Shown one piece after another: positions 21,143 to 23,013 of a stretch of 64,000 bases of DNA; the stretch's first letter is position 1, and the number at the start of each line of letters is the position of its first letter. The stretch lies in NCBI RefSeq assembly GCF_000146165.2, contig NC_004347.2, forward strand, positions 4,511,029 through 4,575,028. The letters run 5' to 3'. Under the pieces are notes generated by a model. The model made no database searches and was not told the origin of the DNA. It worked only from the letters and a program-made list of their open reading frames with translations. This DNA is from Shewanella oneidensis MR-1 (GTDB lineage: Bacteria; Pseudomonadota; Gammaproteobacteria; Enterobacterales; Shewanellaceae). A program made the translations under genes and the position numbers.

Positions 21143-21389
21143 GTCAAAGTCGTGGGTCTTCAACCCACACCCGACCAAGAGGGGATCAACAGCAATTCCC
21201 TCTTGGATCTCCCTTGCCGCCCTAGCGAAGTTGCATGCATTAGATACTAGCCTTGGTCTTATGGACAAATTGCTATCGCTTCCGATGGTACATCCTGTAC
21301 CCCGAAAGCTAGCCGGTCATCCATGACCGGGCTCACGCAATTTATTCCAATGCCCTGCGGCAACTTCGCAGGGGAGGGTGAACTTCTGT
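21143..21389 (+). repeat. Structured repeat of about 240 bp, left inverted copy
   Basis: It runs from GTCAAAGTCGTGGG to GGTGAACTTCTGT. The reverse complement of 22641-22879 begins and ends with nearly the same words and shares CCACACCCGACCAA near the outer end and TGCCCTGCGGCAACT near the inner end. It is full of small hairpins: CGTGGGTCTTCAACCCACAC, CCAAGAGGG / CCCTCTTGG, GCCGGTCAT / ATGACCGGGC, CTGCG / CGCAG. The middle is diverged between copies while the stems are kept, suggesting selection on RNA or single-strand DNA structure. No open frame. Confidence 0.75.
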
Positions 21390-21569
21390 AGCCAATGTGT
21401 GGACTGTTAATCTAGAAAGAGCTGCACCTATCCTATCTTTCCTAAAAACCGCTATCGCAAAAAAGTAAATTCCTATAGCATCATTTATACCAAATGACAT
21501 GGATGTAGCAGCCAAGTCCAACTAGTAATTTATGCCCCGCAAACAGCGCTTCGCATAAATACTAAGATG

Positions 21570-21580
21570 TTATACGTTAA
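21570..21580 (+). repeat. 11-bp flanking repeat, left of the AbiTii gene
   Basis: TTATACGTTAA, 18 bases before the start codon. Its exact reverse complement, TTAACGTATAA, spans the stop codon region at 22504-22514, so the pair encloses the gene. The layout recalls the core ends of an integron cassette, but the bases do not fit the attC consensus fully. Confidence 0.5.
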
Positions 21581-21598
21581 TCATAGTTACGAGTTTAA

Positions 21599-22507
21599 AT
21601 GAAATTAATTGAAGAAATTGTCGATTTACTAAGCTCAAATGAGCCAAATTTAACGACAGCCCTAATGAAGACAAAAGTTCTTCTTCATAGGCTTGGAGAA
21701 AAAGAGCTGTTGGAGTGGGTTGATGGTGAACTTAAAGGTTACCCTAACGTAGATAACCTACCTGATTATCGTATCTTGCGAGTAACAGTGATAGGTAACT
21801 CTAGCAATATGGCGTATAGATATACAAGGCAGATTCTTCCAACAATGCATTTAGATAAGAAAATAAAAAATAAATTAGAAACTACATATTTAACACATAG
21901 CATTGCTGTAATAGAAAAGTATTCTCGAAACGATGAGGATCTTCAAATTACCATAGCTCCTGAATATTATAGATTTCTATCTAAGGGCTTAGGTAATGGT
22001 TATGAAATAGAGTCAGCTTGGGGACAACATTCTGCCGGAGCAATGACCCAAATACTGACAGAGGTACAATCAAGACTTTTAGACTTTGTACTTGAACTCT
22101 CAGAAAAATTCCCTGAAGAACTTCAAACTTCTGAAATGAAAATAAGGTCTAAGGAGGTTGGTGTGTCAGACTTATTTAATAACGCAGTTTTTGGTGATAA
22201 CGTAACAATAGTTGTTGGTGATTCAAATAAACAGAAAATCACTAATTCAATAATAAAAAATGATTTCGAGTCGTTACGACAAACTCTTCGAGAAAATGGA
22301 GTCGCAGAAGATGATATTGCAGGATTAAATACAGCGATTCAGGCTGATGAAGGTGCAAAAGAATTAGCTAACGGTAATTTTGGCTCAAATGTTTCTGGAT
22401 GGATTGGAAATATGGTATCTAAAGCTGCGTCTACAGCTTGGGATATAAATATTGGAGTTGCAGGTAGCTTATTAGCAACAGCAATCAGCAAGTTCTACGG
22501 TTTTTAA
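21599..22507 (+). CDS. AbiTii-domain protein, candidate phage-defence gene
   Basis: 302 residues. The N-terminal part (about 1-180) looks like an AbiTii domain: an opening helix LIEEIVDLLSSNEPNLTTAL, then LGEKELLEWVDGELKGYPNVDNLPDYRI. AbiTii proteins are linked to abortive infection against phage. The C-terminal part (about 185-302) has no recognised domain and ends in a glycine- and alanine-rich, weakly hydrophobic stretch (ASTAWDINIGVAGSLLATAISKF). Codon use is clearly more AT-rich than the genes on both sides, which suggests transfer. It is enclosed by inverted structured repeats. A defence role is inference from the domain and setting. Confidence 0.7.
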   Translation: MKLIEEIVDLLSSNEPNLTTALMKTKVLLHRLGEKELLEWVDGELKGYPNVDNLPDYRILRVTVIGNSSNMAYRYTRQILPTMHLDKKIKNKLETTYLTHSIAVIEKYSRNDEDLQITIAPEYYRFLSKGLGNGYEIESAWGQHSAGAMTQILTEVQSRLLDFVLELSEKFPEELQTSEMKIRSKEVGVSDLFNNAVFGDNVTIVVGDSNKQKITNSIIKNDFESLRQTLRENGVAEDDIAGLNTAIQADEGAKELANGNFGSNVSGWIGNMVSKAASTAWDINIGVAGSLLATAISKFYGF

Positions 22508-22514
22508 CGTATAA
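22504..22514 (-). repeat. 11-bp flanking repeat, right of the AbiTii gene
   Basis: TTAACGTATAA includes the stop codon of the AbiTii gene and is the exact inverted partner of 21570-21580. The intron-like element on the other strand ends at this point. Confidence 0.5.
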
Positions 22515-22580
22515 ATAGAGTAGCTGGAGGTATCTAGCCTCTAGCCCCCACACTGCATGCGGCTCCGCACAGGGCGGTTC
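22514..22580 (-). mobile_element. Group IIC intron 3' end (domains V and VI), remnant
   Basis: On the minus strand the sequence opens with GAACCGCCC, continues as TGTGCGGAGCCGCATGCA and then GTGTGGGGGCT. This closely resembles the domain V of group IIC introns, with a CGC triad, a tetraloop-side stem TGCGG / CCGCA and a 2-base TG bulge. It is followed by a domain VI-like hairpin, GCTAGAGG / CCTCCAGC with unpaired A residues, and the ending CTACTCTATT, close to the usual CTACCCGATT. No reverse transcriptase frame is present, so only a remnant is left. This is a call by eye against remembered consensus. Confidence 0.5.
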
Positions 22581-22640
22581 ATTTAGGCAAAAGATGGGAC
22601 AGTCATAACTCTTTTGGGACTAACAGCCGACACTGAAATC

Positions 22641-22879
22641 ACAGAAGTTCACCATCCCCTCGGAGTTGCCGCAGGGCATTTGCGGTCGTTGCGTGAGCGA
22701 GGCATGGATGCCGAGATAGCGTCAGTCGAATCAGGGACGAGCGTCTGACGCGATAGCATAAGAACGCTTAATGCCCAAGGGGCTTTCAACTCCGTTGGGG
22801 ACGCCGGGGGATATCCAAAAGGGGAACAGGCGCTTTTTCCCTTTTGGTCGGGTGTGGGGTGAAGCCCCACGACTTTGAT
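22641..22879 (-). repeat. Structured repeat of about 240 bp, right inverted copy
   Basis: Inverted partner of 21143-21389. On the minus strand it begins ATCAAAGTCGTGGGG and ends GGTGAACTTCTGT, with hairpins GTGGGGCTTCACCCCAC and CCAAAAGGG / CCCCTTTTGG at the same places as the left copy. Spurious short frames cross it on the minus strand. Together with the left copy it encloses about 1.25 kb. Confidence 0.75.
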
Positions 22880-23013
22880 TCACCTCGGCCGTTAGGCCGC
22901 AAGTATGTTTAATAAAGTACAACTTTAAAGCCAAGAATCCTCTAGAGCCCGCGGAACATTATTCTGGATGAGTTCAGAAAATATCAGCTAAGGGCAACCA
23001 GCTGAAAAATAAA

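Follow-up and report, generated by a model that had tools for sequence, protein, structure and literature searches.

An AbiTii gene is enclosed by two facing structured repeats

In the window, the whole stretch of 64,000 nucleotides of Shewanella oneidensis MR-1 DNA that was analyzed, a gene encoding a 302 aa protein with an AbiTii domain (21599..22507, plus strand) is flanked by two repeats that face each other, at 21143..21441 and 22588..22879. The protein matches Pfam family PF18864 with an E value of 2.8e-39 and 135.7 bits, above the gathering cut-off of 27.6, and the G+C content of the gene is 35% compared to 47% for the window. Among the ORFs located between the repeats there is no second sizeable gene; the first-pass annotation, which had placed a single AT-rich gene of the AbiTii type between inverted repeats, was confirmed on this point. 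In the AbiT system, which confers abortive infection, AbiTii has a partner gene, AbiTi. Judging from its domain, the AbiTii gene of the cassette probably blocks phages. Between this gene and the right repeat, the minus strand of 22515..22585 carries a G+C-rich hairpin-like stretch that, by eye, resembles the surroundings of RT genes or group II introns; the segment has no Rfam match at an E value of 1.

The reverse complement of 22641..22879 had been reported to match 21143..21389, and BLAST aligned the two with 69.7% identity over 251 columns. The pair is real but larger than the proposed 240 bp or so per repeat, as homology extends inward to 21441 on the left side and begins at 22588 on the right side; the limit at 21441 was set by homology to a related copy (L148), and relatives match the left repeat over 21176..21441. 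The outer arms of the pair (64 nts) are 78% complementary and the inner arms (20 nts) 95%. Each repeat is composed of two outer hairpins, H1 and H2, followed by a core in which a long closing stem encloses two hairpins. In the left repeat, the strand resembling the Rfam family TwoAYGGAY (see below) is the minus strand, directed out of the cassette; the terminator-like H1 lies at 21152..21168 on this outward strand, H2 at 21175..21206 and the core at 21217..21375 (minus strand), with its hairpins at 21287..21301 (AGGA loop) and 21313..21330 (CATGGATG loop), both read on the minus strand. In the right repeat, the TwoAYGGAY-like strand is the plus strand, again directed out of the cassette, and all of the following except H2 are assigned to it: the core (22655..22804), its hairpins with a CATGGATG loop (22698..22715) and an AGGGA loop (22719..22751), then H2 (22815..22847) and the terminator-like H1 on the outward strand (22854..22870). 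Three sequence types of H2 were distinguished by eye among copies.

A GGCC palindrome, H0, is present at 22884..22900, outside the end of the right repeat. Its 11 matches in the genome (at most 2 mismatches) are all found just outside a repeat, no more than about 125 bp from its end; this location led us to reject the palindrome as a pre-existing target and indicates that it belongs to the element. Extra copies of H1 in short tandem were observed outside one cassette end at four loci (L027, L036, L187 and L193), and in MR-1 the GGCC palindrome adjoins such extra copies.

The repeat is present in many copies and its pairs face each other

A search of the MR-1 genome (5,131,424 bases in two contigs) by BLAST with the left repeat gave 34 matches, some of them partial, and the repeat is therefore not a product of chance. 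At least nine facing pairs are found in this genome, the AbiTii pair among them. When neighbouring near-full copies lying within 7 kb were considered, nine of the 12 pairs were facing, none diverging and three in the same direction. The order-wide search gave a similar picture among the matches listed, with 15 pairs in the facing geometry (two of them from the MR-1 genome), none in the opposite one and four in the same direction. All fetched loci together gave 33 facing, no diverging and four same-direction pairs, a count that is biased because pairs were fetched on purpose.

The search of Shewanella genomes that the first-pass annotation had recommended found the multi-copy repeat in 53 of 60 of them at an E value of 1e-8, and order-wide a match at 1e-6 was obtained in 27 of 247 genomes, belonging to 3 of 87 genera. 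The repeat was not found in phages, the exact outer hairpin was not found in viral contigs, and the plasmid search returned one weak match, which extends over 36% of the query. All three were therefore rejected as carriers.

The fold of the repeat is conserved by compensatory changes

The stems had been supposed to be kept in spite of changed bases, and this was borne out by an alignment of 39 copies from several species. Given a structure of 52 pairs, 91.8% of the cells are paired, 24 of the pairs have changed on both sides, and 213 cells are compensatory compared to a mean of 65.3 (sd 8.4) in shuffled controls and 22-43 in slid controls. The number of further pair types (57 compared to 54.2 in shuffles of the 39 copies) showed no excess. 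A GGA is present in the loops of both core hairpins in 39/39 copies. Fold z-scores of the AbiTii cassette repeats on the two strands were -5.8 and -5.2 for the left repeat and -3.1 and -3.9 for the right repeat.

The repeat and RF01731 are diverged relatives

The best Rfam match at both repeats of the AbiTii cassette is TwoAYGGAY (RF01731), with 29.9 and 24.2 bits for a cut-off of 43. Scores of the MR-1 copies range from 22.8 to 32.5 bits; because even the best stays under the cut-off, these copies are relatives of RF01731 and not members. The Shewanella repeat resembles RF01731 in its closing stem and in two adjacent hairpins with GGA loops, of identical order and strand, and inverted pairs are found for both. 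With RF01731 as query (E up to 1.03), 22 matches were obtained in MR-1, of which 21 fall on BLAST copies and one between two decayed fragments. In the other direction, R1, a model of Shewanella sequences only, was run over RF01731 loci of gammaproteobacteria outside Shewanella, 162 kb in all (E limit 0.1; best match 3.1e-6), and 25/25 of its matches lie at RF01731 positions. Combined, the two search directions show that the Shewanella repeat is a diverged relative of RF01731 with a common ancestry that goes beyond shape.

At an E value of 1e-3, RF01731 itself was detected in 19 of the 321 gammaproteobacterial genomes searched, at most 8 candidates being scored per genome. In 20 longer RF01731 stretches from five genomes, partly picked for visible pairs, 13 hold at least two copies and 7 a single one. 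The geometry of the Shewanella pairs is shared by 12 short RF01731 pairs from three genomes, and one pair (L084) has the opposite geometry. Cargo is mostly absent from RF01731 pairs; in L077, a longer pair, there is a gene that was named by eye as MscS-like. In another gammaproteobacterium (L086), an inverted repeat of ~250 bp with RF01731 copies surrounds a gene named by eye as a HigA-like antitoxin. The closest relative of the AbiTii protein in named genomes belongs to Psychrobacter glaciei (45%; 2 loci), in a stretch with no TwoAYGGAY match.

Rfam types RF01731 as cis-regulatory, and in the part of PMC2864571 that deals with it the family is 'probably' an RNA and not cis-regulatory. The corresponding part of PMC4333381 gives its function as unknown and proposes, from motif matches, that it is a CsrA-binding RNA. 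On the outward strand of the Shewanella copies, G-T pairs outnumber A-C mismatches by 54:24 (34:24 when one column pair is omitted), a mild sign that the outward strand is the one that folds; its free energy is the lower one for both repeats of the AbiTii cassette, the z-score being better for the left repeat only. Plausibly, the repeat would be an RNA-like element of the outward strand, forming a border that stops or marks outgoing transcripts. One may go further and suppose that the repeats are primarily RNAs, in which case outward border RNAs would bind a CsrA-type protein through the two GGA-loop hairpins and end transcription, and exchange of the enclosed DNA would be incidental. The invariant GGA loops, the terminator-like H1 at both ends, the free energies favouring the outward strand and the proposed CsrA binding of RF01731 are all consistent with such a predicted role; against it, the T-run that follows H1 is short, and a scan of the region gave 4 terminator-like sites compared to 1.7 expected and 3 promoter-like sites compared to 4.6 expected. 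We regard a primary role as RNA as unlikely.

The repeats border fixed sites whose content changes between species

The flanks of seven MR-1 elements were sought in six close relatives. For five of them (L009, L010, L011, L013 and L014), both flanks were found on one contig in 4-6 of the 6 relatives, with a spacing that depends on the species; each flank of L015 was found in just 2 of the 6 relatives, never both together, and for L016 the left flank alone was sought. The flanks of elements L029, L031, L033 and L040 (for L031, the left flank only) map to MR-1 sites that also bear repeats. We call such sites sockets. Five sockets were traced across 5-7 Shewanella genomes, giving 31 socket-by-genome cases (MR-1 included) of which 24 have both repeats, 3 have one and 4 have none; the L038 socket consists of a bare repeat pair with about 181 bp inside. 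A cargo protein was common to only 1 of 76 pairs of genomes compared at the same socket, sharing being scored for ORFs of at least 100 aa with more than 40% identity on more than half of the shorter one, and one conserved protein encoded next to the L014 cassette being excluded as non-cargo. Among 42 elements, no cargo besides insertion sequences was common to different sockets, which gives no sign of movement from socket to socket. These results show, for the five sockets, that sockets are fixed sites whose content is replaced faster than species diverge.

Among the sockets, the AbiTii site is a comparatively untidy one. In 14 relatives, the right repeat was found in four (G045, G036, G002 and G042) and the left repeat in one (G394), the other nine being without a full repeat. 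Both flanking genes, with other cargo in between, are present in four of the nine (G413, G403, G006 and G402); in the remaining five, the left gene lies outside the fetched stretch. Some of what the first-pass annotation had named as speaking against its proposal was thus observed, as 9/14 relatives at the AbiTii site had no full repeat, 4/31 cases at the five sockets had no repeat, and the facing pairs L249 and L256 enclose genes that by eye look ordinary (see below).

The same annotation had proposed that the whole may be a mobile block, and had advised a comparison with a strain lacking the block to find an empty site. No empty site was found at the five sockets across the species compared; these shared sites were always filled save for one bare repeat pair, with cargo differing, and no target duplication was seen by eye in the element flanks. 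What stands of the mobile block is the arrangement, in which repeats that face each other and covary enclose one or a few genes, often of the defence type, in many copies and with no common transposase, whereas mobility found no support in an empty site, a target duplication or a cognate transposase. These data bear on an explanation in which the repeats are the TIRs of a non-autonomous, MITE-like transposon, mobilized by a transposase in trans, with captured defence genes and a site preference. Facing pairs in many copies would be expected of it, and the repeats turn over along with the cargo; moreover, near-empty pairs such as L038, L251 and the short RF01731 pairs elsewhere look like MITEs, so that a trans-acting transposase is conceivable. 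The missing empty sites (in the relatives compared) and target duplications (by eye) weigh somewhat against a transposon, as does the finding that no transposase is shared by the elements, and we consider this explanation improbable.

One candidate for the trans-acting enzyme, a Y1/RAYT-like transposase (~330 aa, 332 aa in one form), was rejected as mobiliser because it has its own ends and its presence does not match that of the repeats. Y1-like transposases were found in 48 of 60 Shewanella genomes, among them the genome under study (e.g. L127-L134), with 45 matches in G027. By eye, their ends are their own, and 12 of the 14 loci viewed are without a border repeat, one adjoining in the other two (L135 and L136). 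Repeats without a transposase match (E 1e-10) were found in 11 genomes (G012, G015, G016, G017, G028, G041, G043, G048, G049, G052 and G059) and the transposase without repeats (E 1e-8) in six (G001, G009, G022, G035, G037 and G055). A truncated Y1-like remnant present in L016 has no Pfam match, not even to Y1_Tnp.

Repeats turn over with the cargo

If repeats at one socket were orthologous, they should resemble each other more than repeats of different sockets. This was rejected: the identity of the middle core is 0.72 for the same socket and side, hardly above the 0.69 for different sockets, and the repeats therefore turn over too. To judge from these identities, most of the repeat is exchanged along with the cargo. 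In 11 of 122 same-socket repeat pairs, the flanks are at least 80% identical right up to the repeat; the core is below 75% identity in 8 of these 11 and H1 at or above 90% in 9, and 3 keep their core. Because only these 11 pairs are informative, are not independent and include 3 with the core kept, they are thin evidence for a break. Most copies have nearly the same H1; by eye, H2 types and core types are combined in several ways among copies. Taken with the conservation of H1 and the changes in the core, these combinations are read as recombination at and inside the borders.

The following scheme may be proposed. The AbiTii gene would sit in a fixed Shewanella socket, an intergenic site between two facing TwoAYGGAY-related repeats of ~300 bp. 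Its replacement would most likely proceed by recombination at the borders, the sequence usually breaking after H1 or after H2 to judge from few, partly dependent pairs, and a donor cassette with its own cores and cargo would take the place of the resident one. RecA-type exchange of incoming DNA would be the simplest agent; alternatively, a recombinase may read the folded hairpins. The fold might be kept for a reason of its own, as an RNA-like element of the outward strand that combines a pair of GGA-loop hairpins with a terminator-like hairpin on the outer side. We consider it an even call that exchangeable cassettes, mostly of the defence type, occupy fixed sockets bounded by structured repeats and are swapped by recombination at or near these borders.

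An ordinary defence hotspot could produce a similar pattern if homologous recombination took place in conserved genes on either side of the cassette, the repeats being passive and having an unrelated role. The flanks align across species, cargo is common at the same socket only, and such a route has been suggested for core hotspots of P. aeruginosa in a portion of PMC10250203. Content also varies in the 4/31 socket cases with no detectable repeats and at the AbiTii site in at least four relatives, and because a minority of sockets vary in this way, plain exchange through the flanks remains a strong rival. Three observations speak against passive repeats: their geometry is strictly facing, they recur at sockets unrelated to each other and in another genus, and breaks are located within them. 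On balance, an ordinary hotspot seems to us a possible but doubtful account.

The cargo is rich in anti-phage families

Between the borders there are usually one to three genes. From 41 cargo proteins gathered, 31 (the AbiTii protein and 30 others) were scanned singly against PADLOC, the other 10 entering a group tally only. At an E value of 1e-3, 16/31 cargo proteins had a match compared to 3/10 flanking genes, through shared domains, and 15/31 had none; below 1e-20 the figures were 12/31 and 0/10, a limit that was picked after the results were seen and a comparison in which all 10 flanking genes come from MR-1. The matches below 1e-20 are AbiTii, PDC-M53A and B, PDC-S54, a type VI retron RT, Drt4 (E 1.6e-225), DzbA, the caspase of PDC-S65, PD-T4-2 A (E 9.3e-162), PDC-S31, PDC-S20 and an AriA-like ATPase. 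Pfam at 1e-3 matched 19/40 of the other cargo proteins and adds NACHT, TIR, GmrSD, NERD, FRG, HSDR and DNA methylase domains. The median G+C content of the cargo ORFs at the five sockets is 37%. In ten more distant Shewanella stretches viewed by eye (L249-L258), L249 and L256 enclose ordinary-looking metabolic genes and L251 is nearly empty. As judged from family matches, the cargo is rich in anti-phage families, with some genes ordinary or without a family match; the idea that the repeats carry defence genes often fits the cargo, though by eye not that of L249 and L256.

Insertion sequences were also observed inside five MR-1 cassettes (L012, L014, L015, L016 and L020). The interiors of L012, L016 and L020 match over ~1.2 kb with 99.8-99.9% identity, and these are therefore recent. 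Apart from the Y1-like one, the transposases seen in the cassettes are by eye of the IS3 and IS256 types and are not common to all.

Cassettes of one or few genes next to structured sites also call to mind integrons, in which an integrase would recombine folded single strands. The sites studied here are facing pairs and not arrays of direct repeats, the orientation of the main cargo ORF is mixed (17:13 at the five sockets), and by eye no attC core signature and, among the socket ORFs, no linked integrase was recognized; we regard an integron-like process as most improbable.

A similar arrangement in a second genus

In a second genus (g275; 8 genomes), a facing pair was found in L239 and a single border in nine further loci. 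According to gene names recognized by eye, the borders adjoin cysS in 3 loci, trpB in 3, a uvrD-like gene in 2 and others in 2. The outward strand points towards the adjoining gene and other genes lie on the far side, where the cargo differs, by eye, among the cysS loci and likewise among the trpB loci. The contig of L246 ends on the far side, and in L243 some bases are masked. In L243 and L244, long runs of undetermined sequence (X in translation) were observed near the borders. The arrangement in this genus looks alike.

Discussion

We put forward, more tentatively than exchange at the Shewanella sockets themselves, that TwoAYGGAY-type elements might delimit the cassettes of a dedicated exchange system, distinct from integrons and from transposons alike; folded inverted borders would define fixed docking sites on the chromosome, where single phage-defence genes would be swapped. 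We judge it a real possibility, though one we lean against. If true, an orphan Rfam family would find its function; in any case RF01731, described in 2010, gains a genomic setting. For the turnover of small defence genes among closely related bacteria, where no mobile elements are visible, a structured border would provide a searchable mark of the exchanged genes. The border may also lead to new defence genes, as 15 of the 31 cargo proteins scanned singly have no PADLOC match at an E value of 1e-3.

Sockets bordered by these repeats were not found described in the open-licence literature searched. The study of mobile elements of S. oneidensis MR-1 by Romine et al. 2008, which is outside that scope, reportedly distinguishes three types of MITE, to one of which this repeat might correspond.

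Several known systems share part of this organization. The cDHS of P. aeruginosa and the defence hotspots of E. coli likewise occupy fixed positions between core genes and vary in their defence content, as described in portions of PMC10250203 and PMC10121019; the median size of cDHS1 is 26 kb, mobile elements integrate at the E. coli hotspots, and the term 'inverted repeat' is absent from the main texts of both. REP and REPIN sequences associated with RAYTs are likewise inverted hairpin pairs dispersed in the genome, but REP units measure 20-40 bp according to a section of PMC3733652, where GTAG repeats in Shewanella are reported only from cluster I species, and no RAYT is linked to the Shewanella repeats. 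Integron cassettes rely on tandem attC sites and an integrase, whereas the Shewanella sites are facing pairs. Finally, MITE-flanked cassettes also consist of two short elements devoid of transposase around a cargo; the MITEs treated in part of PMC10969869 are under 500 bp, mainly IS-derived and have TIRs of about 4-30 bp, whereas the Shewanella border is a covarying structure over its whole ~300 nts and occupies fixed sites.
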